The position numbers were made by a program, and so were the translations under genes. From Oscillospiraceae bacterium (lineage in GTDB: Bacteria; Bacillota; Clostridia; Oscillospirales; Ruminococcaceae), in the NCBI GenBank assembly GCA_009784825.1, contig WQXO01000002.1, positions 124,001 to 188,000 on the forward strand: a stretch of DNA of 64,000 nucleotides, in the 5' to 3' direction. Below, piece by piece: positions 19,055-36,359 of the stretch (positions are counted from its first letter, which is position 1; each line of letters opens with the position of its first letter). Under the pieces are notes generated by a model. It was not told the DNA's origin and did no database searches. It saw nothing but the letters and a program-made list of their open reading frames with translations.

Positions 19055-20983
19055 ATGTGGATTAATTCTTTTCCGTTCGAGAAAATTCATAAAGACAGCA
19101 GAGTGGTTTTATACGGTTCCGGCGAAAGAGAGAAACAAATTTACAGGTTGATAACAAAAACAAATTATTGTAAGCTCACGCTTTGGCTCGACAAGAACGC
19201 AGACGGAACCCTCATAAAATCCCCTGAAACAATAAGGGAATTATGCTCAGATGATTATGATTATGTTTTAATATCGTTATACTGTTCTGAAACCAATAAA
19301 GAAATTACACAGGAATTAATTGATTATGGTGTACCTCGGGAGAAAATCATCGGCGGCGTCGGAGTATACAGTGGCTGTAACACCGGCATGTCTTTTCTTA
19401 CAGTTTCGGATTTTTTAAACAATCCGGAAAAGGTTCAGGAGTGTTTAGTTAAATATTTTTATGAATCCGGCGGTGATATTGATTATTTTTATTTGTTCAT
19501 TGACGAATTCAAGGAAAAGTGTAATTCATTAGACGAAAATGAAGCTTTATGTTTCAAGAATGATATTTTAAACAAGTCGCTCGAATATATAAATAAACTT
19601 GACTTACCCGCAGAAGCAAAAATAGTGTTGTTGTATCTTATTATTAAAACTAACTGTTTTTCTAAAGAGCTTTTAAGTCAATTCGTTAATTTAACAGGAC
19701 AAATTGAAGATAATTTATCATTTAAACACTGGTTAATAACTGATTTATCAGCGATTTGGTATTTGTATCCCGACATTATTTATGATGAGTTCTTTATCGA
19801 ACTGAAGGAGCTGCGACGCAGTTACGCATGTGAAATGGCGTTAAATCGAGTACCGCCTTGTGTATCGAGCGGGAATTCAAAAGTTATTTGTGCAGTGGTA
19901 AACAATTTGAACATTTCGCCCGGTTCTATGTCTACTATAATGAGTACATCTTCAATACTGAATGCTATGGCTTCACTCGGATATGAAATACATGTTGTTG
20001 GTTTAAATTCGTTCAACTATGATTCAAGTATGAGTATAGTAAAGCCTTTTTACAGAATAAATTCTCTCCCTACCACAGCAAGAGAAGAGTATGCACCTTA
20101 TTTTTCTGATGGCATTAAAATACATCATGTGATTAACACTACAATGAAAAATCGTCAGCAAGATACACTTGATTTGATATATAATCTTAAACCCGAGTGC
20201 ATTTTTGACTTTAGTGATGAATTCTCAACAATTTCGTATTACTACAGCCGGCATTTTCCCACTATATATTTTCCATTAAGGAAACAAGGACACAGTTGTT
20301 CTTCATTCTTTCATAAATATGTGATTATTCAAGGTGAAGACAACGTAAAAATTCGTTCACCGCTTACAGAAAGTGATATTCTGCGTTTACCCTTGTTCAT
20401 TAAACGAATTGAACCGCTGAACGAGTTCAGCAGAAAAGACTATGGCTTGAATAAAGATGACATTGTTGTAATTACTGTCGGGAAAGTATTGAATTATGAA
20501 ATGTCCAAAGAACTTACAGAGCAGATGTGCGGTTTATTACGTTCAAACACAAAGATTAAATGGTTTGTTGTGGGTTGTAAAAATCTTAATCACATTGACA
20601 AACGACACATAGACTTAATAGGTGAAAGTATTATTTTTATAAGTCACGAAAAGGATTTACCCGGGCTTTACGGTATATGTGATATTTATCTCAACCCGAG
20701 CCGTGTCGGCGGCGGAACATCAGTGGCTTGGGCAATGCAGCATGGATTGGCGATTGCCTCCCCGGTAACTGCTGCAGACGGAACTCTCTATGTCGGCAAG
20801 GACAATTCTTTACCGATTGAATCAGATTTAGTCCCCCATATTCAAAAGCTGTGTGAAGATACCAACCTCTTGAACATCGAAAAAGAAAAGTTCCAAGCTA
20901 TCGCCGATAAGTGGGATATAAATATTTTTGCGGACAAGCTGATAAAAGGAATGAATGATTTAATTGAAAGCGGAGGTCAGTAG
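19055..20983 (+). CDS. Glycosyltransferase-like protein with N-terminal Rossmann-like domain (copy 2)
   Basis: 642 residues. Residues 1-110 are a small Rossmann-like domain (RVVLYGSGEREKQIYRL, then YDYVLISLYCSETNKEI, then YGVPREKIIGG) related to domains in four other proteins of this cluster. From about residue 130 the protein parallels the preceding glycosyltransferase: KYFYESGGDIDYF, TMKNRQQDTLDLI, YYYSRHFPTIYFPLRKQG and CDIYLNPSRVGGGTSVAWAMQHGLAI. The latter is the GT-B donor-site region. SD GAGGTAACGAGGTAAT. The extra domain might bind a nucleotide-sugar or position the enzyme with its partners; this is inference. Confidence 0.7.
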   Translation: MWINSFPFEKIHKDSRVVLYGSGEREKQIYRLITKTNYCKLTLWLDKNADGTLIKSPETIRELCSDDYDYVLISLYCSETNKEITQELIDYGVPREKIIGGVGVYSGCNTGMSFLTVSDFLNNPEKVQECLVKYFYESGGDIDYFYLFIDEFKEKCNSLDENEALCFKNDILNKSLEYINKLDLPAEAKIVLLYLIIKTNCFSKELLSQFVNLTGQIEDNLSFKHWLITDLSAIWYLYPDIIYDEFFIELKELRRSYACEMALNRVPPCVSSGNSKVICAVVNNLNISPGSMSTIMSTSSILNAMASLGYEIHVVGLNSFNYDSSMSIVKPFYRINSLPTTAREEYAPYFSDGIKIHHVINTTMKNRQQDTLDLIYNLKPECIFDFSDEFSTISYYYSRHFPTIYFPLRKQGHSCSSFFHKYVIIQGEDNVKIRSPLTESDILRLPLFIKRIEPLNEFSRKDYGLNKDDIVVITVGKVLNYEMSKELTEQMCGLLRSNTKIKWFVVGCKNLNHIDKRHIDLIGESIIFISHEKDLPGLYGICDIYLNPSRVGGGTSVAWAMQHGLAIASPVTAADGTLYVGKDNSLPIESDLVPHIQKLCEDTNLLNIEKEKFQAIADKWDINIFADKLIKGMNDLIESGGQ

Positions 20984-20988
20984 CATAA

Positions 20989-22350
20989 ATGACGAGAAAA
21001 ACTTCCCAGCTGATGTTGCATTCATGGCTGACCGATAAACAATATAATAAAACATCGGATATATTAAACTGGATTAAACATTTAAATGATACAGTGAGTG
21101 TTGATATTAAGAAAACTTCTTTAGTTGATACAAAGTGGTTTTATGATGAGCAGGCGGGGCAAATTGTTAATGAACGAGGAACCTTTTTCCAAATCAGCGG
21201 AATAAGAAACGGTGAAAAAGAACAACCGATACTAATTCAAAATGAAATTGGGTATCTTGGAATATTATGTAAACCCATTGACGGAATTCTGCATTTTTTA
21301 ATTCAAGCAAAGATTGAACCGGGGAATGTCAACAATATTCAATTATCACCCACACTTCAAGCCACAAAGTCTAATTTCACACAAGCTCATGGCGGAGTTA
21401 AACCGGCTTATTTGGAATGGTTTTTGAATTGTGAAAAACATGAAATAGTTGTTGACCAAATTCAGTCGGAGCAGTCATCACGTTTTTTAGGTAAGCGGAA
21501 CAGGAATATTATAATTATACTTGATGAAGACATCGAGATTGATGAGCTTCCGTCGCATAAATGGCTTACACTGCGTCAAATAAAACAGTTAATCCGCATA
21601 GATAACCTTGTTAATATGGACACTCGTACGGTGCTTAGTTGTATTCCGTTTTATAAATGTGATTTCTCTATTCTTGATTCACCATTGGCACATTCAATTT
21701 CACAGGAAAATCAACCGGAAATTGTTCAAAGCATATACTGTCATTTCAATAATTATAAAATGTTTAACAGCTGTAACTCGGTTCTCGTACCCTTGTATTC
21801 AATCAAAAATTGGGAAACAAAGGTGCATAACGGTGTTGAAGAGTTTGTCAGCAAATCGGAATACCCGTTTAAAATAGTGTTTTGCAATATATCTATTGAG
21901 GGTAGGGAGGTCAGATGTTGGGGGCAACCGCTTTTCGAGGCGACAGGAATGGCAGTGTTCGGGTTGTTCGCAAGAATACACAATGGCGTATATGAATTCT
22001 TGGTTCGTGCCATGCCGGAGATTGGCTGTTTCGATAAAATTGAACTGGGACCCACTGTTCAGCTTGAAGCGGTTGAAAAAGCTGAAGATAGTATTGGCGA
22101 ATTATTTTTTAAACAATATAACTCAAAACACGGGATTATTTGTGATGTGATACTGTCGGAGGAGGGCGGTCGCTTTTATCACGAGCAAAACAGGAATGTA
22201 ATTATTGAAATTGAAGATGATGTTATTTCCACCCCGCCTCCCGGATATTGGTGGTGTACCTATCGAACGCTGAATAAACTGACACAGATTAATAATATTC
22301 TCAACATTCAGCTTCGGAATCTTCTTTCACTTTTGGAGGTTAAGCAATGA
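20989..22350 (+). CDS. NDP-hexose 2,3-dehydratase
   Basis: 453 residues, matching the EvaA/TylCVI/SpnO family in length and in its tandem duplication. Each half ends in the same pattern: SSRFLGKRNRNIIIILDED plus LRQIKQLIRIDNLVNMDTR, and GRFYHEQNRNVIIEIEDD plus YRTLNKLTQINNILNIQLR. The enzyme removes water from dTDP-4-keto-6-deoxyglucose across C2-C3, giving an unstable dTDP-3,4-diketo-2,6-dideoxyglucose that the partner ketoreductase traps. It is the committed step to 2-deoxy sugars. SD GGAGGT; it overlaps the next gene, the putative 3-ketoreductase, by 4 bases, which fits metabolic coupling. Confidence 0.9.
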   Translation: MTRKTSQLMLHSWLTDKQYNKTSDILNWIKHLNDTVSVDIKKTSLVDTKWFYDEQAGQIVNERGTFFQISGIRNGEKEQPILIQNEIGYLGILCKPIDGILHFLIQAKIEPGNVNNIQLSPTLQATKSNFTQAHGGVKPAYLEWFLNCEKHEIVVDQIQSEQSSRFLGKRNRNIIIILDEDIEIDELPSHKWLTLRQIKQLIRIDNLVNMDTRTVLSCIPFYKCDFSILDSPLAHSISQENQPEIVQSIYCHFNNYKMFNSCNSVLVPLYSIKNWETKVHNGVEEFVSKSEYPFKIVFCNISIEGREVRCWGQPLFEATGMAVFGLFARIHNGVYEFLVRAMPEIGCFDKIELGPTVQLEAVEKAEDSIGELFFKQYNSKHGIICDVILSEEGGRFYHEQNRNVIIEIEDDVISTPPPGYWWCTYRTLNKLTQINNILNIQLRNLLSLLEVKQ

Positions 22351-23297
22351 AAATCGGAATTCTCGGCACATCGGACATAGCATTTCGACGGTTTTTGCCC
22401 GCTTTAAAAAAATGTGGATTTTTTGAATTTGCAGGGGTTGCTTCAAGGGATATTTCAAAAACCGTTAATTTCACAAACACTTACGGTGGCAAGGGTTATG
22501 ACGGTTATGAAGCGTTACTTAACGATGAAGAAATCGACTGTGTATATATCCCGTTACCCCCTGCACTGCATTATGAATGGGCGAAAAAAGCAATAGAACA
22601 CTCGAAGCATGTTATGCTTGAGAAGCCTTTTACAACCTCAGTTAATGACACTTCTGATTTAATAAACCTTGCACATTCAAAAAAACTTGCCTTGCACGAA
22701 AACTATATGTTTGAATATCATAACCAAATTGAATGGATACGTTCTAAGCTACCCGAACTCGGCGATTTACGGCTGTTTCGCATTGACTTCGGATTTCCGT
22801 TTCGCAGCGGTGATGATTTTCGTTATAACAAAACTCTCGGCGGCGGTGCATTGCTCGATTGCGGCGGATACACATTAAAGCTTGCGGCGTTGCTTCTCGG
22901 TAGCTCAGCCGAGATTACAGATGCAGCATTAGGTTATAAGGGCGGCTTTGATGTAGATATTTACGGTTCTGCAACTTTACGGAATACCGATGGATTGATT
23001 GCACAAGTATCTTTCGGAATGGACAACAGTTATCGCTGTTCACTTGACGCATGGGGGAGCGTGGGCAGTCTTTATACCGGTCGCATATTTACTGCACCTG
23101 ACACATTAGAGCCTGTTGCGGAGATAAAAATCGGCAGCGACACAAAAGAGTACAAGCTCCCTGCCGATGATTCGTTCGCAAAATCAATAGATAAATTTTC
23201 AAAGTGCATAAATGAAGAAGATGTCCGCCATGAAAATTATAATGCGATAATTAAACAAGCAGAAATAATTAAACAATTTGAGGTGAAATTAAGATGA
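22347..23297 (+). CDS. Gfo/Idh/MocA family NDP-hexose 3-ketoreductase
   Basis: 316 residues. IGILGTSDIAFRRFLPAL is the NAD(P)-binding loop, IPLPPALHYEWAKKA and HVMLEKPFTTS (EKP) complete the N-terminal Rossmann signature, and GGGALLDCGGYTLKLAALLLG is a conserved substrate-domain stretch. Members of this family such as KijD10 reduce the C3 keto group of the 2,3-dehydratase product, making dTDP-4-keto-2,6-dideoxyhexose. Stereochemistry at C3 cannot be predicted. The assignment rests on family and on direct coupling with the 2,3-dehydratase; it overlaps both neighbours by 4 bases. Confidence 0.85.
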   Translation: MKIGILGTSDIAFRRFLPALKKCGFFEFAGVASRDISKTVNFTNTYGGKGYDGYEALLNDEEIDCVYIPLPPALHYEWAKKAIEHSKHVMLEKPFTTSVNDTSDLINLAHSKKLALHENYMFEYHNQIEWIRSKLPELGDLRLFRIDFGFPFRSGDDFRYNKTLGGGALLDCGGYTLKLAALLLGSSAEITDAALGYKGGFDVDIYGSATLRNTDGLIAQVSFGMDNSYRCSLDAWGSVGSLYTGRIFTAPDTLEPVAEIKIGSDTKEYKLPADDSFAKSIDKFSKCINEEDVRHENYNAIIKQAEIIKQFEVKLR

Positions 23298-24427
23298 TTA
23301 AATTCACAAAATCTGCTATAACAGAGCTTGAGGAGGAATATGTTCTCGATGTGCTTCGCAACGGAAGTCTGTCGGGGGACGGTAAATATACCCCGCTTGT
23401 TTATAAACAATTTGAAGAACTCTTCGGTATAAAAAACATGCTTTTGACAACCTCCTGCACTACAGCACTTGAAATGGCGTCTATTCTTATCGACTTAAAA
23501 AACGATGATGAAGTTATTGTACCGTCGTTTACATTTTCATCTACTGCCAACGCATTTTTATTGCGGGGAGCAAAACCAATATTCTGCGACATTCGCAAGG
23601 ACACAATGAACATTGATGAAACACTTATTGAATCTCTGATAACCGATAAAACAAAAGCGATATACACCGTTGATTATGCGGGAGTTTCCTGCGAATATGA
23701 TGCCATAAACCGCATTGCTGAGAAGCATGGTCTATTCGTAATTGAAGATGCGGCACAAGCTGTCGGAGCGTATTATAATGATATACCGTGCGGAACACTG
23801 ACTACGCTTGGGTGCTACAGCTTTCATGAAACAAAAAACTATGTCATGGGTGAGGGCGGTGCAATAGTATTTAACTCGGACAAGTTCATTGAACGTGCCG
23901 AAATAATCCGTGAAAAAGGCACAAACCGCCGTCAAGTGATACAGGGATTAGTGGATAAGTATACTTGGCATGACATTGGCTCATCGTTTCTGCCGTCTGA
24001 TTTGTTATCGGCTTTGTTGTATGCTCAAATGCTCAGATTTGATGAAATAATGTCTAAGAGAGTTAATGTCTGGAACACATATCATAACATACTCAAACCT
24101 TTTGAGGATTCCGGGAAGCTGCGTTGCCCGATTGTTCCGAACAATTGCAAGCACAACGGGCATATGTATAATATTATTCTGCCGAATTCAGATGTGAGGG
24201 CGAAATTAATTGACGAGATGAAGAAAAAAGAGGTTATTTGTTATATATGTTATGTCCCCTTACATTCATCACCTATGGGGCGTAAACTCGGTTATTCCCC
24301 CGATGCTTGCCCGGTTACCGAGGACTATGGTGAGCGGGTATTGCGATTACCTTTATATGCGGATATGACGACGGAAAATGCGGAATATGTTGCTGACAGC
24401 ATTTGTGAAATTCTGCGAAATCTATAA
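23294..24427 (+). CDS. dTDP-4-keto-hexose 4-aminotransferase (DegT/DnrJ/EryC1/StrS, WecE-like)
   Basis: 377 residues. PLP-dependent sugar aminotransferase of fold type I. The lysine that binds PLP is Lys181 in YSFHETKNYVMGEGGA, a version of the motif characteristic of WecE/RffA (dTDP-4-amino-4,6-dideoxygalactose synthase). TSCTTALEMA (residues 53-62), VPSFTFSSTANA and VIEDAAQAVGA are also conserved. Given the upstream genes, its expected substrate is dTDP-4-keto-2,6-dideoxyhexose and its product a dTDP-4-amino-2,4,6-trideoxyhexose, with glutamate as amino donor. It overlaps the ketoreductase by 4 bases. Confidence 0.9.
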   Translation: MIKFTKSAITELEEEYVLDVLRNGSLSGDGKYTPLVYKQFEELFGIKNMLLTTSCTTALEMASILIDLKNDDEVIVPSFTFSSTANAFLLRGAKPIFCDIRKDTMNIDETLIESLITDKTKAIYTVDYAGVSCEYDAINRIAEKHGLFVIEDAAQAVGAYYNDIPCGTLTTLGCYSFHETKNYVMGEGGAIVFNSDKFIERAEIIREKGTNRRQVIQGLVDKYTWHDIGSSFLPSDLLSALLYAQMLRFDEIMSKRVNVWNTYHNILKPFEDSGKLRCPIVPNNCKHNGHMYNIILPNSDVRAKLIDEMKKKEVICYICYVPLHSSPMGRKLGYSPDACPVTEDYGERVLRLPLYADMTTENAEYVADSICEILRNL

Positions 24428-24449: not shown

Positions 24450-25718
24450 ATGGCGGCTACAATTTTCTATGGTGCGGGTGAATATGCACGAGTCAACCTA
24501 ACCTGTTGGAGAGACAGCGGATTAAACCCCGTATGTTTTGTTGACCGTGACGAAAAAAAGCACTATACCAAATTTCCGGGAACAGAAATAGAAATTCTAC
24601 CTTTGAGTGAAGCGATTTCAAGGTATCCCGATTACAAAATCTACATCTCAGTTTCCCCGGAAAATGCTGTTGCCGTTCATAATCATTTGTTGGAGTCCGG
24701 TGTGTCGAAGGAGCGGATTGATTTTGCGGGTGGAGGAGCTTTTTACAAGGGTTGCCATATGCTAAGCACAGGGTATTTTTCAATTTTACAAACCTCACTT
24801 GGAATTAAATTTAGAGCTTGTTGCTGTCCTCAAGGGCCTTTCACTTTCACAACAAGCAAGGACAAAGACGACTTAATACATGAGCTTTTAAAATGTGAAG
24901 AAATCGCTCAAGAATTGATGGACAAACACCGCAACAATGAATCGTGCGTGTGTGACGGGTGTGCAAATCTTATAGACGGTTATTATTCTACAAAACGACG
25001 CATCCAAAAGCTGGTGCCGGACGGTGTTTACCGTGGGGAACGATGTAACGTGAGCTGCATTTATTGCAACGCAAAAGGGATACTAAAAAATAGTAAGGAT
25101 GAAAACTATTTTTCATATGATGAAATATTAGATATTGTCGGCGAGCATATCCCTGATAATGTAACCCTGCTCCCGGGGGCGGGTGAGTTCTTTTTCTCAC
25201 CTAATAAAGAAAAAATATATGAAATAATGAAAAACAAAAACTGGCACGGTTTATTCTTAACAAACGGTCTGATTTTTGACAAAGAGGCTGCCGATATGAT
25301 GCGACAGCGGAAGGCAAGCATTGATATAAGCATTGATGCCGGAACACGTGAAACCTTTGCAAAAATTAAAAGTGTTAATTATTGGGACAAGTTACTTGCG
25401 AATTTAGAAAAATATGCTCAAACCGGCGGATATATACAGTTGAAATACATTTTCTTGGAAAACATAAACGATAACAAAACAGAAATAGATGGCTTTTTTG
25501 ATGTGGCTGTCAAATATGCGAGTGCGGTTAAAATAGCTGCTGACATGGTGGATATGAAAAAACGAAGCACGCCACTATCAGAAAACTGCCGAGATATGAT
25601 GAAATATTTCATCGAAACAGCAAAGAATAAAGAAATCCCTCTGCGTGTGGATTGGCGGGTTTTTGATTATGATAAAGAGTTATGCGATGAACTGAAACAA
25701 GCATTGGCAAGCTGTTAA
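24450..25718 (+). CDS. Radical SAM protein with N-terminal Rossmann-like domain
   Basis: 422 residues. Residues 1-95 are the cluster's recurring small domain (IFYGAGEYAR, CFVDRDEKKHYTKF, EILPLSEAISRYP, GVSKERI). A Cys-rich linker (Cys124-126; Cys166, 168, 171 in SCVCDGC) could hold an extra iron-sulfur cluster. The radical SAM core begins at about residue 195 with CNVSCIYC (Cys199, 203, 206), the Cx3Cx2C [4Fe-4S] site, followed by LLPGAGEFFFSPNKEK and ISIDAGTRETF, the usual strand-end motifs. No SPASM Cys pattern was recognised at the C-terminus. The reaction is unknown: epimerisation, dehydration or carbon-branching of a sugar are all possible. SD AAGGAG. Confidence 0.8.
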   Translation: MAATIFYGAGEYARVNLTCWRDSGLNPVCFVDRDEKKHYTKFPGTEIEILPLSEAISRYPDYKIYISVSPENAVAVHNHLLESGVSKERIDFAGGGAFYKGCHMLSTGYFSILQTSLGIKFRACCCPQGPFTFTTSKDKDDLIHELLKCEEIAQELMDKHRNNESCVCDGCANLIDGYYSTKRRIQKLVPDGVYRGERCNVSCIYCNAKGILKNSKDENYFSYDEILDIVGEHIPDNVTLLPGAGEFFFSPNKEKIYEIMKNKNWHGLFLTNGLIFDKEAADMMRQRKASIDISIDAGTRETFAKIKSVNYWDKLLANLEKYAQTGGYIQLKYIFLENINDNKTEIDGFFDVAVKYASAVKIAADMVDMKKRSTPLSENCRDMMKYFIETAKNKEIPLRVDWRVFDYDKELCDELKQALASC

Positions 25719-27190: not shown

Positions 27191-27850
27191 ATGACTTTAG
27201 GGATTTACGGTTCGGGCGGACTCGGGCGGGAGGTATTAGAGACAATCCGTGCGATTAACGCTGTTTCCGATACATGGCAGCATATCGTATTCATAAACGA
27301 TTTTAAAACGGACGAATCATTAGTAAACGGTATAAAGGTGTTTACATTTGATGAGTTTAAAGCGGAATTTCTTCCCGAAACTACAAAAACAGTTATCGCT
27401 GTTGGTGAACCGCAACCACGAAAAATGCTGCGTGAAAAAGTAACAGCGAGTGGTTACAGCTTGCAAACGATTATTCACCCTACTGCTTTTATCGCAAGTG
27501 AAACGCAAATCGGCGATGGTACAATTGTTCAATTCGGCAGCTTAGTGTCATGCAATGTAACAATTGGCGAAAGTGTTGCAATTCATCCTAACACAAATAT
27601 CGGGCATGACAGTGTTGTCGGAAATGATGTTGTTTTCTCACCGTTTGTTGCGTTATCGGGACATTGTATAGTAGGTGACGAGGTATACTTGGGTGTCGGA
27701 GCAATTGTTAAGGAGAGAATAACAATCGGTAAAAACACGATTATAGGAATGGGTTCCGCCGTTATGCGTGATATTCAAGAGGATGTGATTGCGTTAGGAA
27801 ATCCCGCACGTGCAATGAAAAAGAACGAAGACGGTCGTGTTTTCAAATAG
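27191..27850 (+). CDS. PglD/NeuD-type sugar N- or O-acyltransferase
   Basis: 219 residues. Residues 1-90 form the PglD N-terminal Rossmann-like domain that binds the nucleotide-sugar (LGIYGSGGLGREVLETI, then VIAVGEPQPRKMLREKV). Residues 92-210 are a left-handed beta-helix of hexapeptide repeats (TAFIASETQIGDGTIVQFGS in part; IHPNTNIGHDSVVGND), with His139 as the probable base that deprotonates the sugar amine. The end, ALGNPARAMKKNED, is typical. In context it should acylate the C4 amino group of the dTDP-amino sugar, using acetyl-CoA or perhaps an acyl-ACP made by the following genes. SD GAGGTAATAT. Confidence 0.88.
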   Translation: MTLGIYGSGGLGREVLETIRAINAVSDTWQHIVFINDFKTDESLVNGIKVFTFDEFKAEFLPETTKTVIAVGEPQPRKMLREKVTASGYSLQTIIHPTAFIASETQIGDGTIVQFGSLVSCNVTIGESVAIHPNTNIGHDSVVGNDVVFSPFVALSGHCIVGDEVYLGVGAIVKERITIGKNTIIGMGSAVMRDIQEDVIALGNPARAMKKNEDGRVFK

Positions 27851-27860
27851 TGGAGGTAAT

Positions 27861-28580
27861 ATGTTAGATAATAAAGTTGCTCTTGTCACAGGTGCTTCGA
27901 GGGGCATTGGTAAAGCGATAGTCGAGGTTTTTGCAAAAAACGGTGCAATCGTATATGCCAACGCCAGAAAAGAAGGAGATTTAGATGACATAATCAGCGA
28001 GAATATTATTCCGTTATACTTTGATGTCACAGACAACAGCGGAATTAAAAATGCTTTTTCTCAAATTAAAAAAGAGCAAGGCAGGTTGGATATTCTTGTA
28101 AACAATGCGGGAATAATGAAAGACGCTTTAATCGGCATGATTTCCGGCGAAGTCATGCGTGAAATTTTTGAAACAAATGTGTTTGCCGTAGCAGAATTAA
28201 TTCAATTTGCATCGAAATTCATGATACGGCAGAAGTCAGGAAGCATTATAAATATATCAAGCCTTGTAGGAGTCAACGGCAATAAGGGGCAATTGGTTTA
28301 TTCAGCTTCTAAGGGAGCAGTTATCTCAATGACTAAGACTGCGGCGAAGGAGCTTGCACAATATAATATCCGTGTGAATTCAATTGCACCGGGGATTATT
28401 GACACCGATTTACACAGCTTCGTCGGCAAGGAACATATGGCGGAACGAATTGCCGGCATCGGCATGAAACGTCTCGGAACACCGTGCGATGTTGCTAATT
28501 CTTGTTTATTCTTGGCATCCGATTTATCAGAATATGTAACAGGACAGGTTATCGGTGTTGACGGAAGTGCTTTAATATAA
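27861..28580 (+). CDS. SDR-family reductase, FabG-like
   Basis: 239 residues. I use ATG 27861 behind TGGAGGTAAT; the longer frame from 27837 adds eight residues without homology. VTGASRGIGKAIVEV is the NADP(H)-binding TGxxxGIG loop, NNAGIMKD follows, and YSASKGAVISMTKTAAKEL is the YxxxK catalytic region, with Ser in ISSLVG. The C-terminus has RLGTPCDVANSCLFLASDLSEYVTGQ, typical of FabG. Because an acyl carrier protein gene follows directly, it is likely to reduce a 3-oxoacyl-ACP for a dedicated acyl group rather than for general lipid synthesis, which has its own fabG at 52980. A sugar substrate is the alternative. Confidence 0.85.
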   Translation: MLDNKVALVTGASRGIGKAIVEVFAKNGAIVYANARKEGDLDDIISENIIPLYFDVTDNSGIKNAFSQIKKEQGRLDILVNNAGIMKDALIGMISGEVMREIFETNVFAVAELIQFASKFMIRQKSGSIINISSLVGVNGNKGQLVYSASKGAVISMTKTAAKELAQYNIRVNSIAPGIIDTDLHSFVGKEHMAERIAGIGMKRLGTPCDVANSCLFLASDLSEYVTGQVIGVDGSALI

Positions 28581-28605: not shown

Positions 28606-28842
28606 ATGACAAACTTACAAAAATACGAAAATGCTTTTATCGAAACACTCGGCATTGAGCAAAACCAAACAACAAATCTTGAATATCAAGCAATACCCGA
28701 GTGGGACAGTATCGGACATATGTCGCTTATCACCGCATTAGAAGATGTTTTTGACATAATGATGGATACCGATGATATAATTGACTTCAGCAGTTTTGAA
28801 AAAGGCAAAGAATTGCTCAAGAAATATGATGTTCAAATTTGA
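28606..28842 (+). CDS. Acyl carrier protein (cluster-specific)
   Basis: 78 residues, acidic and helical. EWDSIGHMSLITALED contains Ser35, the predicted phosphopantetheine site (DS[IL] motif). It differs clearly from the housekeeping AcpP at 44789 (GADSLDIV), so it is a dedicated carrier. SD ATGGAGG before ATG 28606. Flanked by a FabG-like reductase and an acyl-AMP ligase and followed by LuxE-like and LuxC-like genes, it probably carries the acyl group handled by all of these. The next gene overlaps its 3' end by 17 bases. Confidence 0.9.
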   Translation: MTNLQKYENAFIETLGIEQNQTTNLEYQAIPEWDSIGHMSLITALEDVFDIMMDTDDIIDFSSFEKGKELLKKYDVQI

Positions 28843-30238
28843 CGAATTCGCCGACAATGTTGCGATAATATGCGAAGATGGTGAGAGCATTTCTTATACC
28901 GAATTGCAATCGGCGTGCGATGAACTTTCCGCAAGAATAAAAACACGTTCGATTATATTCAATTTATGTGCCAATGAAAAAGGCTCTTTGTTAGGGTATG
29001 TCACATTCATCAACGCCGGAATTGTCCCCGTTATGCTTGACGCAACACTCGATAAGGAGTTGCTTTCCGCTTTGATTGAAAGCTATAGCCCCGACTATTT
29101 GTGGGTTCCTCAAACACAAGCAGAATTTTTCGGCGATTGTGAGCAGGTTTTCGTTATTTGGGATTATACTCTTTTGAAAACACCATACACAAATGTTTAC
29201 CCGTTGCATGATGAGCTTGCGTTGCTGTTGACAACGTCCGGTTCAACCGGAAGCCCGAAATTCGTTCGGCAAAGCTATACAAATATTCGTGCAAACACAG
29301 AATCGATTGTCGAGTATTTGCAATTAGAATCGAATGAACGCCCGATTACGACAATGCCTATGAGCTACACCTACGGTCTCTCAATCATTAACAGCCATTT
29401 ATGGGTGGGGGCGTCTGTAATTCTGACACAGAAAACACTTATGCAAAAAGAGTTTTGGCAGCAGTTTAAAGACCACGGTGCAACCTCATTCGGCGGAGTA
29501 CCTTATGTCTACGAAATGCTGGATAAACTTCGCTTTTTCAGAATGGACTTACCCTCTTTAAGAGCGATGACACAAGCAGGCGGAAAGCTCTCGCCTGAAC
29601 TGCACAAAAAGTTCGCTGAATATGCAATTGCCAACAATAAGAAATTCATAGTTATGTATGGGCAAACCGAAGCCACAGCACGAATGTCCTACTTACCTGC
29701 CGAAAAATCTCTCGAAAAATACGGCAGCATGGGAATTGCCATACCCGGCGGCGAGTTTTCTTTAGCAGATGTTGACGGTAACGAGATTATTGAATCGGAT
29801 AAAGTGGGAGAGCTCGTTTACAAAGGTGCTAATGTTACGCTTGGTTATGCACAAAGCGGTTCAGATTTGCTTAAGGGTGATGAACGCTTTGGTGTATTAA
29901 TTACAGGTGATATGGCAAAACGTGATAAGGATGGGTTTTATTACATCGTCGGGCGTAAGAAACGGTTTTTGAAAATATTCGGAAGCAGAGTAAATCTTGA
30001 CGAAACAGAGCGGCTTCTGAACAGTGCATTTACTGATATTGAATGTGCCTGCGGCGGTGTCGACGATAGGATGACAGTTTTCATAACCAATCCCGAGCTT
30101 GCCCAAAGTATAATTAGTTTTTTAGTTGAAAAAACAGGATTAAACAGGATTGCTTTTAAAGTTATTCATGTTGAAAAAATCCCCCGAAATGAAGCGGGGA
30201 AAATATTGTATAGTGAGTTGAACAAAATTGATGTTTAA
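28826..30238 (+). CDS. AMP-dependent acyl/amino acid ligase
   Basis: 470 residues from ATG 28826 (an alternative ATG is at 28829). The ANL-superfamily motifs are visible: LLLTTSGSTGSPKFVRQ (P-loop-like A3), YGQTEATARMSYLP (A5), GELVYKGANV, LITGDMAKRDKDGFYYIVGRKKRF (A7/A8), and a final NEAGKILYSEL with the catalytic Lys. The enzyme activates a carboxylic acid with ATP. The upstream ACP makes acyl transfer to its phosphopantetheine likely. The residues that set the substrate cannot be read reliably. The start lies inside the ACP gene with a poor SD, suggesting translational coupling and near-equal production. Confidence 0.85.
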   Translation: MMFKFDEFADNVAIICEDGESISYTELQSACDELSARIKTRSIIFNLCANEKGSLLGYVTFINAGIVPVMLDATLDKELLSALIESYSPDYLWVPQTQAEFFGDCEQVFVIWDYTLLKTPYTNVYPLHDELALLLTTSGSTGSPKFVRQSYTNIRANTESIVEYLQLESNERPITTMPMSYTYGLSIINSHLWVGASVILTQKTLMQKEFWQQFKDHGATSFGGVPYVYEMLDKLRFFRMDLPSLRAMTQAGGKLSPELHKKFAEYAIANNKKFIVMYGQTEATARMSYLPAEKSLEKYGSMGIAIPGGEFSLADVDGNEIIESDKVGELVYKGANVTLGYAQSGSDLLKGDERFGVLITGDMAKRDKDGFYYIVGRKKRFLKIFGSRVNLDETERLLNSAFTDIECACGGVDDRMTVFITNPELAQSIISFLVEKTGLNRIAFKVIHVEKIPRNEAGKILYSELNKIDV

Positions 30239-31307
30239 TGAAATATTGCAACTGTCGCCGTTTTCGCTCAGTAAATCCGAGAAAGAACTGCTGTTGACAC
30301 GGCGACTGTCAGAATTAACAAATCACCATATCAAAAACTGCCCTGAGTACGCTTCAATACTGAGTGGAATTGGGTTTGACATTGCCGAGTGCGGGAGTTA
30401 TTATGACCTGCCCTTCTTACCTGTGAGCCTTTTTAAAGAACTTGATTTAAAAAGCATAACACAGGAAGAAATATTTAAAGTCATGACTTCTTCAGGAACA
30501 ACCGGACAAGCAGTTTCAAAAATCTATCTGGATAAGACTACAGCGAACAATCAACAAAAAGCTTTGGCAAAAATTGTATCAGAATTCACCGGCTCTTCAC
30601 GAATGCCTATGTTGATTATCGACAGCCCCTCAGTCATTAAAAACCGCACAATGTTTTCGGCAAGAGGAGCGGGGATTTTGGGATTTTCGATTTTCGGAGC
30701 AGACAAGGCTTATGCACTAAACGACGATATGGAGATTGACCTTCCTGCAATTGAGGCTTTTTTTGAAAAGCACAGCGGTAAACGCATACTTCTATTCGGG
30801 TTCACATTTATGGTGTGGTCGCATTTTTATAAAGAATTGTTGAAAATAAAACACAGATTTGATTTACACAACGGTATATTGATTCATGGCGGCGGGTGGA
30901 AGAAATTAGTCGGCGAATCTGTTTCAAAAAGTGAATTCAAAAGCAAACTGACCGACATATGCGGGCTTAACGACATTCATGATTATTATGGAATGGTTGA
31001 GCAAACCGGATGTATTTACATGGAATGTGAACACGGTCATTTACACGCAAGCATCTTTTCAGACGTAATTACGAGACGGCATATCGATTTCTCCCCATGT
31101 GAATTTGGCGAACCCGGAATTGTGCAGGTTGTCTCGGTTTTACCGGAATCCTACCCCGGACATTCCCTGCTCACAGAAGATGAGGGTGTCATTCTCGGCG
31201 AAGATGATTGCCCCTGCGGACGCAAGGGGAAATACTTTCAAATAAACGGCAGACTAAAAATGGCTGAAATACGGGGGTGCAGTGACACTTATGCAGTTAA
31301 CAGATAA
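30228..31307 (+). CDS. LuxE/PaaK-like acyl-protein synthetase
   Basis: 359 residues. LuxE activates a fatty acid as acyl-AMP and passes it to a Cys and then to the LuxC reductase in bioluminescent bacteria. Visible features: FLPVSLFKELDL near residue 65, VMTSSGTTGQAVSKIYLD (adenylate P-loop), ILIHGGGWKKL, and DYYGMVEQTGCIYMECEHGHLHA, which corresponds to the LuxE YGMxE-GxxxxEC active region. The length (~360-370) matches LuxE. No luxAB genes are present, so this is not a light system. Together with the next gene it should form an acyl-to-aldehyde reducing pair acting within the glycan cluster. It overlaps both neighbours. Confidence 0.85.
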   Translation: MMFNEILQLSPFSLSKSEKELLLTRRLSELTNHHIKNCPEYASILSGIGFDIAECGSYYDLPFLPVSLFKELDLKSITQEEIFKVMTSSGTTGQAVSKIYLDKTTANNQQKALAKIVSEFTGSSRMPMLIIDSPSVIKNRTMFSARGAGILGFSIFGADKAYALNDDMEIDLPAIEAFFEKHSGKRILLFGFTFMVWSHFYKELLKIKHRFDLHNGILIHGGGWKKLVGESVSKSEFKSKLTDICGLNDIHDYYGMVEQTGCIYMECEHGHLHASIFSDVITRRHIDFSPCEFGEPGIVQVVSVLPESYPGHSLLTEDEGVILGEDDCPCGRKGKYFQINGRLKMAEIRGCSDTYAVNR

Positions 31308-32445
31308 TTTAGAAGGCTTGATTAACGCCAAACCGCTTGTCCCTTTTGATGATGACGTATTGGAATTCTTCGGCGATTTGTCAAAACAATTGACAAAGGT
31401 TCGTGAATATTCTGATGTAGCAACCTTCGGGTTTTGGTGCAGAAAAGCAGCACTGCTTAAAGAAAAATCGAATTATAATGATTTAGACAAACGGCTCGGT
31501 AAAGGAGTGGTGTTTCACTCAACACCATCGAATGTTCCGGTAAACTTTGCATTCAGCCTTGCAGCAGGGTTGCTCGCAGGCAACGCAAATATTGTTCGCT
31601 TACCCGGCAAGAATTTTGAGCAGGTTGAAATCATAGTTAATGCAGTGAATGAATTGTTAGCGGGTAAACATAAAAATCTTGCTCCGTATATAAACTTCGT
31701 GAAATATCCCCCTAATAAAGAACTGCATGATAAATTCTCTGCCGTTTGCGATGTTCGTGTGATTTGGGGCGGAGACAACACGATTAATGAATTGCGTCAA
31801 TCACCGTTAAAACCGAGAGCAACCGAGCTGACATTCGCTGACAGATATTCCGTAGCAGTGATAAACGCCGATGAATATATTAATGCTCAGGATAAAGAAA
31901 AAATTGCACAGGATTTTTATAACGATACGTATTTCACCGACCAAAACGCCTGCACCTCACCTCGAATAGTGTACTGGCTCGGGAGTAATATTGATGAAGC
32001 GAAATCGACTTTTTGGGGGAAACTGCACACTCTCGTTAAATCAAAATATGAATTAGCACCTGTTCAATCAGTCGGAAAGCTGTCAGCACTTTACAAAGCA
32101 GCTGCCAATATGCCGATAAATTATTGCAAATCAGCGGATAATTATATCACACGTGCTGAAATAAATAACACCGATGAAAATCTTATGGAGTTTAAATATA
32201 ACAGCGGATTTTTCTTTGAACAAAGCATTGCCGAATTAAAGGAAATCCTGCCAATTTGCGGCGAACGCTTGCAAACGCTAACCTATTACGGTTTATCAAA
32301 TGATGAATTAGCGTTTTTCTTCACAGAACACAGACCCAAAGGGATAGACCGTGCAGTGCCATTTGGAAAGTCAATGGATTTTTCATTAGTGTGGGACGGA
32401 CATGACTTAATCAGTCAGCTTTCAAGAAAGGTAATTATATCATGA
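31282..32445 (+). CDS. LuxC-like acyl-CoA/acyl-enzyme reductase (aldehyde forming)
   Basis: 387 residues from GTG 31282 (ATG 31291 is an alternative). GVVFHSTPSNVPVNFAFSL and LLAGNANIVRLPGKN are the aldehyde-dehydrogenase-like NADPH region of LuxC, and DQNACTSPRIVYW contains Cys224 (GTG numbering), the acyl-accepting cysteine. Known LuxC enzymes reduce a thioester-bound acyl group to an aldehyde. Family length is usually about 480, so this copy is short by roughly 90 residues, mainly at the N-terminus. It starts 26 bases inside the LuxE-like gene, so the two are translated together and very likely form a complex. Confidence 0.85.
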   Translation: MTLMQLTDNLEGLINAKPLVPFDDDVLEFFGDLSKQLTKVREYSDVATFGFWCRKAALLKEKSNYNDLDKRLGKGVVFHSTPSNVPVNFAFSLAAGLLAGNANIVRLPGKNFEQVEIIVNAVNELLAGKHKNLAPYINFVKYPPNKELHDKFSAVCDVRVIWGGDNTINELRQSPLKPRATELTFADRYSVAVINADEYINAQDKEKIAQDFYNDTYFTDQNACTSPRIVYWLGSNIDEAKSTFWGKLHTLVKSKYELAPVQSVGKLSALYKAAANMPINYCKSADNYITRAEINNTDENLMEFKYNSGFFFEQSIAELKEILPICGERLQTLTYYGLSNDELAFFFTEHRPKGIDRAVPFGKSMDFSLVWDGHDLISQLSRKVIIS

Positions 32446-33377
32446 ACAGCGGAAAAGTTGCAATAATAGGTGTGGGATACGTTGGTTCAAGCATTGCATA
32501 CGCTCTCACAATCAAAGGAACAGCTCGGGAAATTGTTTTAATTGAACAATCCGGCTCGCATGAAAAATGCAAGGCGGAAATCAGCGATATTCGTCACGGA
32601 ATACCTTTCATGGGGACATCTGATATATATAACGGTGATTATTCCGATATTAAGGACTGCGATTTAATCATAATAACAGCAGGCCGTAACCGCAAGCCGG
32701 GCGAAAAACGCATCGACATGAAAAACGACAACCTCAAAACCGCAGCACAAGTAGCAAACGAAATTAAAAAACACTACACAAAAGGGGTTGTCCTTATTGT
32801 AACAAATCCGGTTGACACAATCACTCGTGCAATGAGCGAATGGCTCGATTTGCCCGACGGAATCGTGTTCGGAACAGGGTGTTTGTTAGATAGCTCGCGA
32901 TTTGTCAATGTTGTTGCCGATTATGCAGGAATTACCTCAAACAGCATTAATGCTCATATCATCGGAGAACACGGAGAAGGTCAAATCGCTTTGTGGAGCA
33001 AGGTGATGATAGCGGGAATCCCTATCGAGGAATACTGCCAAATGACCGGAATTCCTTTCACGAATGAAACAAAAATAATTATGGAGGAAAAGGTTCGTCT
33101 TATGGGGGCAGAAATCATCAAAGGAAAGGGACGAACACATTTCGGCATAGCTACTTGTGTATGTTATATCGCAGACGCTATCCTAAACCACAGACCTACG
33201 ATTGTCAGTGTTTCAAGTATGCTGCAGGGTGAATACGGGATTAGCAGAGTCGCACTCAGTTTACCGTGCGTGGTTGACTCAAGCGGCGTTGAGCGGCGGT
33301 TAATGGAGAAGTTAAGCGAGCTTGAATTAAGCAGACTAACCGAGGTCGCTGATTCACTCTTATCTGTTTGGGAATAA
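32442..33377 (+). CDS. Lactate/malate dehydrogenase-family enzyme with malate-type specificity residue
   Basis: 311 residues. VAIIGVGYVGSSIAY is the NAD loop. Catalytic residues correspond to LDH: Asp150 and Arg153 in LLDSSRF (D168/R171), His177 in GEHGEG (H195), and Arg90 (R109). The position equal to LDH Gln102, which sets substrate preference, is Arg84 in AGRNRKPGEKR. Arg is the malate dehydrogenase residue, and the Q102R change is known to convert lactate to malate dehydrogenase. The preferred substrate may therefore be oxaloacetate or another 2-oxo-dicarboxylate. In context it could supply a hydroxyacid for acylation of the sugar. It overlaps the LuxC-like gene by 4 bases. Confidence 0.85.
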   Translation: MNSGKVAIIGVGYVGSSIAYALTIKGTAREIVLIEQSGSHEKCKAEISDIRHGIPFMGTSDIYNGDYSDIKDCDLIIITAGRNRKPGEKRIDMKNDNLKTAAQVANEIKKHYTKGVVLIVTNPVDTITRAMSEWLDLPDGIVFGTGCLLDSSRFVNVVADYAGITSNSINAHIIGEHGEGQIALWSKVMIAGIPIEEYCQMTGIPFTNETKIIMEEKVRLMGAEIIKGKGRTHFGIATCVCYIADAILNHRPTIVSVSSMLQGEYGISRVALSLPCVVDSSGVERRLMEKLSELELSRLTEVADSLLSVWE

Positions 33378-33389
33378 TCGGAGGTAAAA

Positions 33390-34469
33390 ATGGAATTTAT
33401 TAAAATGGATTTCAAGGCAGAATTAGCAAAGGTTTCCCCGAAATTAAGGAGAGGTGCGAATATATATATTTGGGGAACGGGGCATGATTGGGAGCATATA
33501 AGAAAGCTGTATAAGCTTTATAAAAGAATAAATCTTGAAGATTCCGTATACGCTTTTATTGATAATGACCCGTTGAAGCAAGGCACCGAGTATTATGGGA
33601 AGAAAGTTATTTCACCTGATGAAATAGATATAGACAATGCTGTAGTTATAGTATCCTTGGCGAATTATTTGGGTACATCTGTAATTAAGCAATTGATAGA
33701 GATGGGGTTTCATTTCAAAAGTGATTGCTTTGACAGAGTATATTTTTATTTTATGCTTCGTCGTTTCAGCAGGCTTCAGTTTTCTCAATTTGAAAATAAA
33801 CATAAGGGAGAGCGTTGTTTTATTATCGGGAATGGTCCAAGTTTAAAAACACAAGACTTGGATTTATTAAAAAACGAATTCACCTTTGCCACAAATCAAA
33901 TATATCTCGCCTTCGAGGAAACTGCATGGCGACCGACTTATTATGTTGTTGAAGACGATATGTTTATGGAAACAAAGCACAAGGAGTTTTGCAACATTAT
34001 TACAGGAATTAAATTTCTTGCCTCACATAAGATTCCTGCCATCGAATCCTTCGAGGCGGAAAACGCTTATTATTATAATGTCGATGCTGACAGCTCCTAT
34101 CAACAGCTCCCATATAAATTGAAGTTCAGCATTGAGCCGGGATTGGTTTATCACTGCGACACAGTCACATACACCTGCTTGCAATTTGCGGCGTTTATGG
34201 GTTTCAAAGAGATATATTTATTAGGTGTAGATAACAGCTATAGTGTTTTAAGAAAAGCAGACGGTGAAATAATTTATAAAAATCAAAAACAAAACCATTT
34301 CAACCAAAATTATTCTGCATCGCATTATATTGGTGATATTGATTTAGTAAACGCCGGCTATCAAGCCGCACGGGAATATGCAGACAATAACGATATAAAA
34401 ATCTATAATGCCACACGTGCAGGAGAGCTTGAAGTATTTGAGCGTGTTACATTGGAAGATATACTTTAA
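33390..34469 (+). CDS. DUF115/Maf-like protein with N-terminal Rossmann-like domain
   Basis: 359 residues. Residues 20-115 are the cluster's small Rossmann-like domain (NIYIWGTGHDWEHIRKL, VYAFIDNDPLKQGTEYYG, VVIVSLANYLGTSVIKQL). From residue 140 comes CFIIGNGPSLKTQDLDLL, with GNGPS at 147-151. This motif is shared by DUF115 proteins (including motility-associated factors that transfer nonulosonic acids to flagellin) and by CST-type sialyltransferases. NQIYLAF, YYVVEDDMF and IYLLGVDNSY follow the same family order. It is a good candidate for the transferase that attaches the cluster product to its protein or glycan acceptor. SD GGAGGTAAAA. Confidence 0.75.
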   Translation: MEFIKMDFKAELAKVSPKLRRGANIYIWGTGHDWEHIRKLYKLYKRINLEDSVYAFIDNDPLKQGTEYYGKKVISPDEIDIDNAVVIVSLANYLGTSVIKQLIEMGFHFKSDCFDRVYFYFMLRRFSRLQFSQFENKHKGERCFIIGNGPSLKTQDLDLLKNEFTFATNQIYLAFEETAWRPTYYVVEDDMFMETKHKEFCNIITGIKFLASHKIPAIESFEAENAYYYNVDADSSYQQLPYKLKFSIEPGLVYHCDTVTYTCLQFAAFMGFKEIYLLGVDNSYSVLRKADGEIIYKNQKQNHFNQNYSASHYIGDIDLVNAGYQAAREYADNNDIKIYNATRAGELEVFERVTLEDIL

Positions 34470-34494: not shown

Positions 34495-35370
34495 TTGAAA
34501 TCAATAATCTTATCGGGCGGTCACGGAACCCGCCTTTACCCTATGACTAAAGTTATCTCGAAACAGCTTCTGCCGATTTATGACAAGCCAATGATATACT
34601 ATCCCTTGTCCGTGCCGTTGCTTGCGGGAATTCGGGATATACTCATTATTTCAACCCCTCGGGATTTGCCGATGTATCGGGAGCTTCTCGGAGATGGTTC
34701 ACGTCTGGGAATCAACCTTGAATATGCTGAACAATCCGCCCCGAAAGGGCTTGCAGAAGCGTTCATAATCGGCGAGAAATTCATTAACGGTGACAGTGTA
34801 AACTTAATTCTCGGCGACAATGTTTTCTACGGACAGGCTTTTTCACGCACTCTCGAGCTTGCATTGAACAATAAACATGGTGCTACTGTTTTCGGTTATC
34901 CCGTGAAAAACCCGAAAGAATTCGGTGTGGTGGAATTCGACGATAACGGCAAGGCAATTTCACTCGAAGAAAAGCCGGCAAAACCCAAATCAAACTACGC
35001 AATTCCGGGGTTATACTTCTATGATAGTGAGGTTGTCAATATTTCCAAAAATATTACCCCGTCAGCACGGGGCGAGCTCGAAATAACGGCGGTGAATAAC
35101 GAATACTTAAAGCAGGGTAAATTAAACTGCGTTCTTATGGGACGCGGAATGGCGTGGCTCGACACGGGGACTCCGCAGGGATTGCTAAAGGCAGCCGAAT
35201 TTGTAGAAACCATGCAATCACGTCAAGGCTTTTACATTTCCTGTATTGAAGAAATTGCATGGCGTAAAGGATTTATAAACACAGAGCAATTGATGAAATT
35301 AGGCGAAGAATTAAAAATGACCGAATATGGCGAGTATATTATATCGCTGTGTGAAAGCGAGGTAATGTAA
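34495..35370 (+). CDS. rfbA: Glucose-1-phosphate thymidylyltransferase
   Basis: 291 residues. It starts with TTG 34495, with the SD GCGGAGGT upstream and no in-frame ATG nearby. [36 protein letters not shown] (only partly quoted: GGHGTRLYP and [10 protein letters not shown]) is the nucleotide-binding and catalytic signature of RmlA/Rfb[11 protein letters not shown] and [11 protein letters not shown] are also characteristic. It makes dTDP-glucose from dTTP and glucose-1-phosphate, the first step for all dTDP-deoxy sugars of this cluster. No rfbC or rfbD (rhamnose branch) is present. Confidence 0.96.
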
Positions 35371-35375
35371 ATCAT

Positions 35376-36359
35376 ATGAGAATAATTGTAACAGGCGGAG
35401 CGGGGTTCATTGGCGGAAATTTCATACATTATATGACAAAAAAATATCCGAATTATCGTATAATCAATGTGGATTGCCTCACTTACGCAGGAAATTTAGC
35501 CACGCTCAAAAGCGTTGTCAATAACCCCAATTACAAGTTTTATAAAACCGATATTACTGACCGCAACGCCATAAACGACATTTTCGAGAATGAAAAACCC
35601 GATATAGTGGTCAATTTTGCGGCGGAGAGTCACGTTGACCGCAGCATTGAAAACCCGGCAGTGTTTTTGAACACGAACATAATCGGAACACAAGTTTTAA
35701 TGGACGCTTGCCGCAAACATGGAATTCAACGTTTCCACCAAGTCTCCACTGACGAGGTTTACGGGGATTTACCGTTAGACCGCCCCGATTTAATGTTCAC
35801 AGAGCAGACCCCGATTCACACATCAAGTCCGTATTCGGCGAGTAAGGCGAGTGCAGATTTGCTGGTGCAGGCTTATTACAGGACGTTTAAGCTACCTGTT
35901 ACAATCTCACGCTGCTCAAATAATTACGGGCCGTATCACTTCCCCGAAAAGCTGATTCCGCTTATGATTGTTAACGCTCTCCATGATAAACCGCTCCCTG
36001 TTTACGGAAAGGGCGAAAACGTGCGTGACTGGTTATATGTCGAAGACCATTGTTCTGCGATTGATTTAATTATTCACAGCAACGCAGTCGGCGAGGTTTT
36101 TAACATCGGCGGTCATAACGAAATGCGTAACATTGATATTGTTAAGCTGATTATAAGTGAACTCGGCAAAAGCGAGGATTTAATCACATTTGTTGAGGAT
36201 AGGAAAGGTCACGATTTACGTTATGCAATCGACCCTGCAAAAATCAACAATAAACTCGGTTGGCTTCCGCAAATAAAATTCGCTGACGGTATTATTATGA
36301 CAATTCAGTGGTATCTCGAAAACCGTTGGTGGTGGGAACCGCTGTACATGAATAGGTGA
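35376..36359 (+). CDS. rfbB: dTDP-glucose 4,6-dehydratase
   Basis: 327 residues, SDR extended family. TGGAGFIGGNFIHYM is the NAD loop, STDEVYGDL carries the catalytic Thr/Asp/Glu, and YSASKASAD the YxxxK. RCSNNYGPYHFPEKLIP (family signature) and GENVRDWLYVEDH follow. It converts dTDP-glucose to dTDP-4-keto-6-deoxyglucose, the substrate for the 2,3-dehydratase encoded at 20989. It lies five bases after rfbA and its own stop overlaps the start region of the following lipoprotein gene. Last biosynthetic gene of the cluster. Confidence 0.97.
   Translation: MRIIVTGGAGFIGGNFIHYMTKKYPNYRIINVDCLTYAGNLATLKSVVNNPNYKFYKTDITDRNAINDIFENEKPDIVVNFAAESHVDRSIENPAVFLNTNIIGTQVLMDACRKHGIQRFHQVSTDEVYGDLPLDRPDLMFTEQTPIHTSSPYSASKASADLLVQAYYRTFKLPVTISRCSNNYGPYHFPEKLIPLMIVNALHDKPLPVYGKGENVRDWLYVEDHCSAIDLIIHSNAVGEVFNIGGHNEMRNIDIVKLIISELGKSEDLITFVEDRKGHDLRYAIDPAKINNKLGWLPQIKFADGIIMTIQWYLENRWWWEPLYMNR

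Follow-up and report, generated by a model that had tools for sequence, protein, structure and literature searches.

Why does a bacterium of the Oscillospiraceae carry genes of the LuxE and LuxC families among genes for a deoxyamino sugar? The question is raised by a stretch of 64,000 nucleotides (hereafter, the window) of contig WQXO01000002.1, positions 124,001 to 188,000 (contig C2 in our numbering), from a genome of 2.18 Mb that is 98.7% complete. Here a short-chain dehydrogenase/reductase (SDR), an acyl carrier protein (ACP), an acyl-AMP ligase of the ANL type, a LuxE-like acyl-protein synthetase and a LuxC-like thioester reductase are encoded one after the other (Table 1). The first-pass annotation of this DNA took the five genes as a set by which an acid is activated, held on the carrier and reduced to an aldehyde. 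The analysis leads to the conclusions that: (i) the module genes are real, keep their catalytic residues and lie beside dTDP-deoxyamino-sugar genes; (ii) they probably supply the N-acyl donor for a 4-amino sugar; (iii) a C4 dihydroxy acid derived from malate is a plausible donor, at slightly less than even probability.

All five genes lie on the + strand at the positions first given, and their identities are upheld by Pfam, save for the ACP, which matches no Pfam family at 0.001 and an NCBIfam ACP model only weakly (6.5e-4); its relatives align with an invariant serine. The genes are contiguous, as first described; overlaps are found at three junctions (ACP/ANL, ANL/LuxE and LuxE/LuxC) and not at the first, SDR and ACP being 25 bases apart. 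Cys224 of LuxC (NACTSP) and Cys351 of LuxE (RGCSD), which we take to be the active cysteine and the acyl acceptor, respectively, are kept in 7/7 rows of each alignment, i.e., of alignments that include the remote fused proteins of L222 and L223 and no true lux operon. Loss of function of the Cys224 pocket, named in the first-pass annotation as a possible refutation, is thus not indicated by residue conservation. LuxE also retains SSGTTG, a motif presumably typical of AMP-forming enzymes. Against solved structures, the LuxE family profile finds chain 7xc6_E (LuxE, 6.8e-28) and the LuxC family profile finds 7xc6_A (6.2e-10, positions 78-374), these namesake chains of 7xc6 being the strongest solved relatives of both. 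The best solved matches of the ANL ligase are oxalate-CoA ligases.

Light production, already excluded in the first reading, is rejected here because LuxE and LuxC score far below the cut-offs of the NCBIfam lux equivalogs (68.9 of 550 and 41.3 of 750 bits, respectively) and no luciferase family turned up among the 22 window proteins scanned against family libraries, the whole genome not having been searched for one. The luxCDE fatty acid reductase (7xc6) shares with the window both protein families, LuxE and LuxC, as well as the catalytic cysteines; it also has LuxD, whereas neither a LuxD-like nor a luciferase gene is found among the scanned proteins. The genomes of L242 and L243, candidate true lux controls, looked dissimilar to lux operons and were not used.

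A scan for LuxE in the host family (197 genomes, the window's genome counted) gave 10 strong places (E below 1e-30) in 9 genomes, the window's included. Weaker matches, which cover the C-terminal part of the model only, were taken to be other AMP-forming ligases and not considered further. Of the 10 places, three (L039, L040 and L041) have no ACP or ANL match and were excluded; they hold a second type of LuxE/LuxC pair, adjoined in L039 by a YhhN-family gene. In species genomes, at least 591 pattern matches and at least 530 relatives of LuxE were found, of which the best 80 were kept. The 85 loci compared below are 6 family loci and 79 of these 80 (L054, on the same contig as L034, was dropped); they are the best LuxE matches and not a random sample.

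The module is no chance neighbourhood, since LuxC recurs on the same strand within 8 genes of LuxE in 84 of the 85 loci, the ANL ligase in 83 and the ACP in 70. The loci surveyed carry eight phylum-level labels. Other partners, named by Pfam and NCBIfam on representatives, are: an SDR (56 loci), transketolase (39), NeuB (21), a thioesterase (21), a thiamine pyrophosphate (TPP) enzyme (15), a metallo-beta-lactamase (MBL)-type protein (12) and a lactate dehydrogenase (LDH)-fold enzyme (12). LuxE and LuxC share a single frame in 8 loci. At least one glycan-type neighbour (from a chosen panel) is present in 67 loci and FabZ or FabH in 23; the module is thus not found mainly next to unrelated lipid genes, a prospect raised by the first-pass annotation. 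One locus of a Lachnospiraceae genome, L075, combines LuxE, LuxC, an LDH-fold enzyme, an aminotransferase, an oxidoreductase and a 2,3-dehydratase as in the window, and is the only one of the 85 to have the 2,3-dehydratase.

In which order would these enzymes act? The LuxE family is, we assume, an ATP-dependent activating enzyme in its own right. LuxE is thus expected to activate its acid itself, and the ANL ligase and ACP need not feed it: the enzyme classes of the first scheme stand, while its order (an ACP-held acid that is then reduced) is probably wrong. The ACP gene adjoins 4-amino-sugar N-acyltransferases in relatives, which suggests that the acid supplied by the ANL ligase and ACP is the end product and not the one that LuxE/LuxC reduce. 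In the order Enterobacterales (that of Kosakonia, L106), LuxE was matched at 1e-15 in 48 of 394 genomes; among 20 loci picked from these 48 genomes and read, 13 have a PseH-like GNAT directly before the ACP. All 13 match PseH, at 49.6-84.9 bits, below the cut-off of 93.1. A WecD-like GNAT is found in 16 of the 85 loci, and in 9 of the 10 with a WecE-type aminotransferase above 300 bits. Because these GNAT genes recur with the ACP and with the WecE-type aminotransferase, the ACP cargo most likely ends on a 4-amino sugar. In the window, a NeuD-type transferase precedes the SDR, and a PseH-type N-acyltransferase directly before the ACP was not found.

Several points weigh against the proposed N-acyl scheme: (i) in the LuxE tree (built by a quick method from 106 rows) the 13 PseH loci fall within a single cluster, and are therefore not 13 independent cases; (ii) the name "WecD-like" is weak, one member scoring 24.4 bits against a cut-off of 219 and L075 giving no match; (iii) any of three N-acyltransferase classes is present in only 45 of the 85 loci (PseH queries taken from three Enterobacterales-order loci); (iv) in L075 no ACP is matched, and an SDR only weakly; (v) the thioesterase (21 loci) and the MBL-type protein (12 loci) are unneeded by the proposed scheme.

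The first-pass order and the published guess run the other way: the ANL ligase would load an acid, perhaps fatty, on the ACP, and the acid would be passed to LuxE/LuxC, to leave them as an aldehyde or an alcohol with which the glycan is decorated. This is improbable in the window, where the set has no thioesterase, LuxE keeps the SSGTTG of AMP-forming enzymes, the closest solved ANL structures act on oxalate and the LDH-fold enzyme would be left without a role; the place of the ACP directly after PseH-like N-acyltransferases in 13 loci also speaks against such an order. Yet 18 of the 85 loci (L033, L034, L051 and others) have a thioesterase directly before LuxE, presumably resembling LuxD of luxCDE, i.e., a LuxD-LuxE-LuxC-like trio in glycan clusters. 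Moreover, the ANL ligase and LuxE are fused in a single protein of 877 or 935 residues (L224:8841-11471 and L225:6470-9274), and the window ligase has as its second-best NCBIfam model a subfamily of long-chain-fatty-acid ligases (140.5 of 476 bits). FabZ or FabH, in 23 loci, points to chemistry on the ACP there; like the ligase match, it favours the fatty-acid reading over the N-acyl one. In several loci (L058, L120 and L078 among them) the same ACP is accompanied by FabZ, FabH and a gene of the NMO family, possibly FabK-like, which suggests that some glycan clusters contain small pathways of a fatty-acid-like type. Finally, in their accessible parts, PMC7874193 and PMC4875605 both interpret the module genes as fatty-acid ("liposugar") genes.

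The count of five genes overlooked a sixth one, which overlaps the LuxC stop and encodes the LDH-fold enzyme. No other protein of the genome matches Ldh_1_N, and neither malic enzyme nor Ldh_2 nor class I fumarase (the one fumarase class covered) gave a match. The LDH-fold enzyme reaches 286.8 bits against the L-LDH model, below the cut-off of 303.55, and has Arg102 and the GEHG motif of LDH-like malate dehydrogenase (MDH); Gln102 of L-LDH is absent. Lactate as its product is disfavoured by Arg102. Position 100, numbered in what we take to be the usual LDH scheme, is basic in all 13 module enzymes (window plus 12 loci; 12 Arg, 1 Lys), and Arg102 is likewise found in 13/13. By comparison, 30 LDH-fold loci from other host-family genomes have Gln102 (24) or Arg102 (6) and never a basic residue at 100. 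The gene directly follows LuxC in 10 of the 12 loci that have it; this place and the basic residue 100 disfavour a housekeeping passenger. The KPG loop of the module enzymes drifts. Among the 29 nearest class homologues compared, all have Arg102 and none has a LuxC match within ~1.5 kb on either side; two of them carry the AGRNR motif without LuxC in that span, which counts against the proposed scheme. In G015, a genome of the same genus, the module is present with different partners, and Ldh_1_N finds no match. In the portions of PMC3268733 available, Gln102Arg is linked to malate dehydrogenase, Arg at 102 marks MDH, and the Arg-bearing protein of Clostridium cellulolyticum is the primary MDH, a mutant retaining 28% of activity.

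The route that we propose leads from malate through a C4 dihydroxy acid, the ANL ligase and the ACP to an N-acyltransferase acting on dTDP-4-amino-2,4,6-trideoxyhexose; its substrates, step order and final structure are deduced from the enzyme classes. The Arg102 enzyme would convert oxaloacetate to L-malate; LuxE would activate L-malate with ATP and transfer it via Cys351 to Cys224 of LuxC, which would reduce the malate thioester to malate semialdehyde; the SDR would yield (S)-2,4-dihydroxybutyrate (3-deoxy-L-glycero-tetronate). The ANL ligase would then adenylate 2,4-dihydroxybutyrate and load the ACP, from which the NeuD-type transferase would move the acyl group to the 4-amino group of a sugar built by RfbA, RfbB, the 2,3-dehydratase, the oxidoreductase and the WecE-type aminotransferase. 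The sixth gene, the neighbouring transferases and the masses given below all agree with this C4 N-acyl reading. It is weakened by the fact that we infer both malate as the LuxE substrate and the choice of the carboxyl reduced.

Similar sets have been described in other bacteria. According to the accessible parts of PMC7874193, Aeromonas flagellin glycosylation islands hold the same five enzyme classes beside 4-amino-sugar genes, and in A. piscicola AH-3 orf1-3, luxE and luxC lie downstream of pseH. The window likewise has the five classes contiguous and next to 4-amino-sugar genes; the order differs, being ACP-SDR-ANL after pseH in the Aeromonas type and SDR-ACP-ANL after a NeuD type here. An LDH-fold relative is present in the window and in none of the 20 Enterobacterales-order loci (none known as Aeromonas). 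L231 and L240, two Enterobacterales-order loci with the gene order of the Aeromonas type, are 49% and 45% identical to the window for LuxE, and 25% and 26% for LuxC. In the Dickeya zeae EC1 and Enterobacteriaceae flagellar-island sets, as given in the available text of PMC4522980 and PMC4875605, LuxC, LuxE, a ligase, FabG and an ACP are found as in the window; the EC1 set also has an acetyltransferase and two transketolase genes, transketolase being likewise present in 39/85 loci. For V. vulnificus, the part of PMC11264103 at hand has a gene table in which a putative ACP and RfbN in two pieces adjoin a NeuC homologue and an acetyltransferase for 4-amino sugars; this is possibly another module of this kind.

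In V. cholerae O1, VC0248 is in our understanding an ACP. The tetronate genes VC0248-VC0252 include the RfbL ligase, RfbN (acyl protein synthase/acyl-CoA reductase) and an acetyltransferase (PMC3441752 and PMC9201469, accessible parts). Like the window, this set thus joins a ligase, LuxE/LuxC functions and an acetyltransferase in a 4-amino-sugar cluster; it differs in having an iron alcohol dehydrogenase between ligase and LuxE/LuxC and RfbN as one gene, where the window has an SDR and separate LuxE and LuxC. L222 and L223 resemble it, with weak ACP and ANL matches, an iron alcohol dehydrogenase and a LuxE-LuxC fusion, in the gene order that is published, starting at RfbL, for V. cholerae O1; they are 36% identical to the window in the LuxE part and 19% in the LuxC part. 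The module had first been described as not characterised. This holds for its product in the host, which is not in print in the sources at hand; the gene set itself is already in print in other bacteria, as the Aeromonas islands (PMC7874193) and the tetronate assignment (PMC3441752, PMC9201469) attest. No literature giving a C4 N-acyl reading of the module was found among the matches listed, which mostly do not cover subscription papers.

The masses may be compared with this route. The accessible literature describes, on the flagellin glycan of A. piscicola AH-3, a 376.14 Da pseudaminic derivative and a 102 Da moiety without assigned identity, and in V. cholerae O1 3-deoxytetronic acid acylates perosamine (PMC3441752, part available). 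The 3-deoxytetronic acyl group, C4H6O3 by our derivation, adds 102.03 Da; replacing one acetyl of Pse5Ac7Ac (316.127) by it gives 376.148. The AH-3 102 Da group and 376 Da pseudaminic acid may thus carry a C4H6O3 acyl, on a nominal and a two-decimal mass fit. Two points count against this link: (i) O-methylglyceryl and other dihydroxybutyryls would give the same mass, and within 0.02 Da there are three further formulas; (ii) the literature, as far as accessible, places the 102 Da group at the glycan end. The isobaric masses leave some room, though little, for an N-acyl scheme of this kind in which a different short acid is carried. It might be 3,4-dihydroxybutyrate, an acid like O-methylglycerate, or a product derived from a different 2-oxo acid on which the Arg100/Arg102 enzyme acts; the Arg100 signature and the drifting KPG loop of that enzyme may signal that its substrate is not oxaloacetate. 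Among the enzymes found in the set none indicates a methylated acid, however, and what V. cholerae O1 carries, in the text of PMC3441752 at hand, is 3-deoxytetronate.

The partner families raise a broader scheme. Transketolase, NeuB and TPP carboligases are enzyme classes able to accept an aldehyde acceptor. LuxE/LuxC might make one short aldehyde, which an SDR or iron alcohol dehydrogenase would reduce and transketolase, NeuB or a TPP carboligase would extend, the ANL ligase and ACP loading the resulting acid for amino-sugar N-acylation; we regard this as tentative and rather unlikely. Such swapping of partners on a common aldehyde would give an exclusion between SDR and extenders and partner types scattered in the LuxE tree. 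Transketolase, TPP enzyme or NeuB is present in 1 of 12 loci with a close SDR vs. 44 of 46 with other SDRs, close meaning 225 bits to the window SDR, a threshold set after the scores were viewed (they run 220, 226, 262; L077, at 226, is borderline); the p-values computed for these contrasts take no account of relatedness. ACP and ANL are both present in 72 loci; an extender accompanies them in 57 of these, a close SDR without extender in 11 and neither in 4. In the LuxE tree, the extender types are no more clustered than in shuffles, transketolase changing 31 times (32.3 in shuffles) and NeuB/TPP 20 (19.4); the "plain" set is mildly clustered (23 vs. 27.7) and the PseH set strongly (2 vs. 12.5). 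Frequent recombination alone could also produce this scatter. It must be added that the LDH-fold enzyme is no marker of the reducing route, since it accompanies a window-like SDR in only 1 of 12 such loci and 9 of the 12 LDH-fold loci hold transketolase, TPP enzyme or NeuB; both counts weigh against the malate route.

As first described, the module lies beside dTDP- and 4-amino-sugar genes, with the NeuD-type transferase upstream and RfbA/RfbB downstream. Because the 2,3-dehydratase, the oxidoreductase, the WecE-type aminotransferase, RfbA and RfbB flank it, the amino sugar, predicted from gene content, is most likely dTDP-4-amino-2,4,6-trideoxyhexose. Solved relatives of the NeuD/PglD-type transferase include perosamine N-acetyltransferase and VioB. 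The host genome has three flagellin matches, and no flippase or polymerase was seen among the 22 scanned window proteins; flagellin glycosylation is thus a possible use of the module in the host. The PF01973 domain occurs together with a Maf domain in L237. Between aminotransferase and acyltransferase lie a radical SAM gene and a gene for an aldo/keto reductase with 4Fe-4S motifs. Their place, and another radical SAM in L058, would suit an aldehyde used as a building block for the sugar or by these enzymes, and not as an acyl precursor; this is very unlikely, relatives of the window radical SAM being found in 0/85 loci and of the aldo/keto reductase in 1/85.

Table 1. Genes of the module and of the surrounding sugar cluster in the window
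Feature	Position	Strand	Evidence and remarks
Glycosyltransferase	19055..20983	+	Glycos_transf_1 4.3e-07
NDP-hexose 2,3-dehydratase	20989..22350	+	PF03559 7e-114; EvaA the only solved match
GFO/IDH/MocA oxidoreductase, presumed 3-ketoreductase	22347..23297	+	PF01408 3.6e-24; putative role
WecE-type sugar 4-aminotransferase	23294..24427	+	PRK11706 515.3 bits (above cut-off 375)
NeuD/PglD-type hexapeptide sugar N-acyltransferase	27191..27850	+	TIGR03570 184.4 bits (above cut-off 160.8); proposed acyl transferase
FabG-like SDR	27861..28580	+	adh_short_C2 2.5e-57; proposed reducer of the LuxC aldehyde
Dedicated ACP	28606..28842	+	Ser35 in WDSIGHM, invariant in 7 aligned sequences
ANL acyl-AMP ligase	about 28826..30238	+	AMP-binding 8.1e-45; start codon chosen by the analyst; proposed ACP loader
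LuxE-like acyl-protein synthetase, Cys351	30228..31307	+	LuxE 2.3e-53
LuxC-like thioester reductase, Cys224	31282..32445	+	LuxC 8e-26
LDH-fold enzyme, Arg102 (malate type) and Arg100	32442..33377	+	Ldh_1_N and Ldh_1_C; overlaps LuxC stop
MptE-like protein	33390..34469	+	PF01973 6.1e-14
RfbA, glucose-1-phosphate thymidylyltransferase	34495..35370	+	TIGR01207 458 bits (above cut-off 360.65)
RfbB, dTDP-glucose 4,6-dehydratase	35376..36359	+	TIGR01181 486.5 bits (above cut-off 365.1)

Two further features of the cluster were seen. By eye, a Rossmann-like stretch resembling PglD_N ("YGSG/GAGEYARV...CFVDRD") is recognized at the N- or C-terminus of four proteins (19055-20983, 24450-25718, 25743-27176 and 33390-34469), where it is fused to the glycosyltransferase, the radical SAM protein, the aldo/keto reductase and the MptE-like protein, respectively. 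At the start of the sugar cluster (16092-17441), a cytidylyltransferase-like domain is fused to a GFO/IDH/MocA oxidoreductase.

To our knowledge, the product of such modules is identified only for V. cholerae O1, while at least 530 LuxE-relative stretches are found in species genomes and nearly all of the 85 loci read, from many phyla, pair LuxE with LuxC and the ANL ligase. If the C4 reading is true, the 102 Da group and the 376 Da pseudaminic acid of Aeromonas flagellin would gain an identity open to testing, which could replace the "liposugar" guess. If a common aldehyde is indeed reduced or extended by different partners, these modules would provide a widespread, combinatorial means of placing uncharted acyl groups on the surfaces of bacteria, and with partner swapping glycan side chains would become predictable from gene content.

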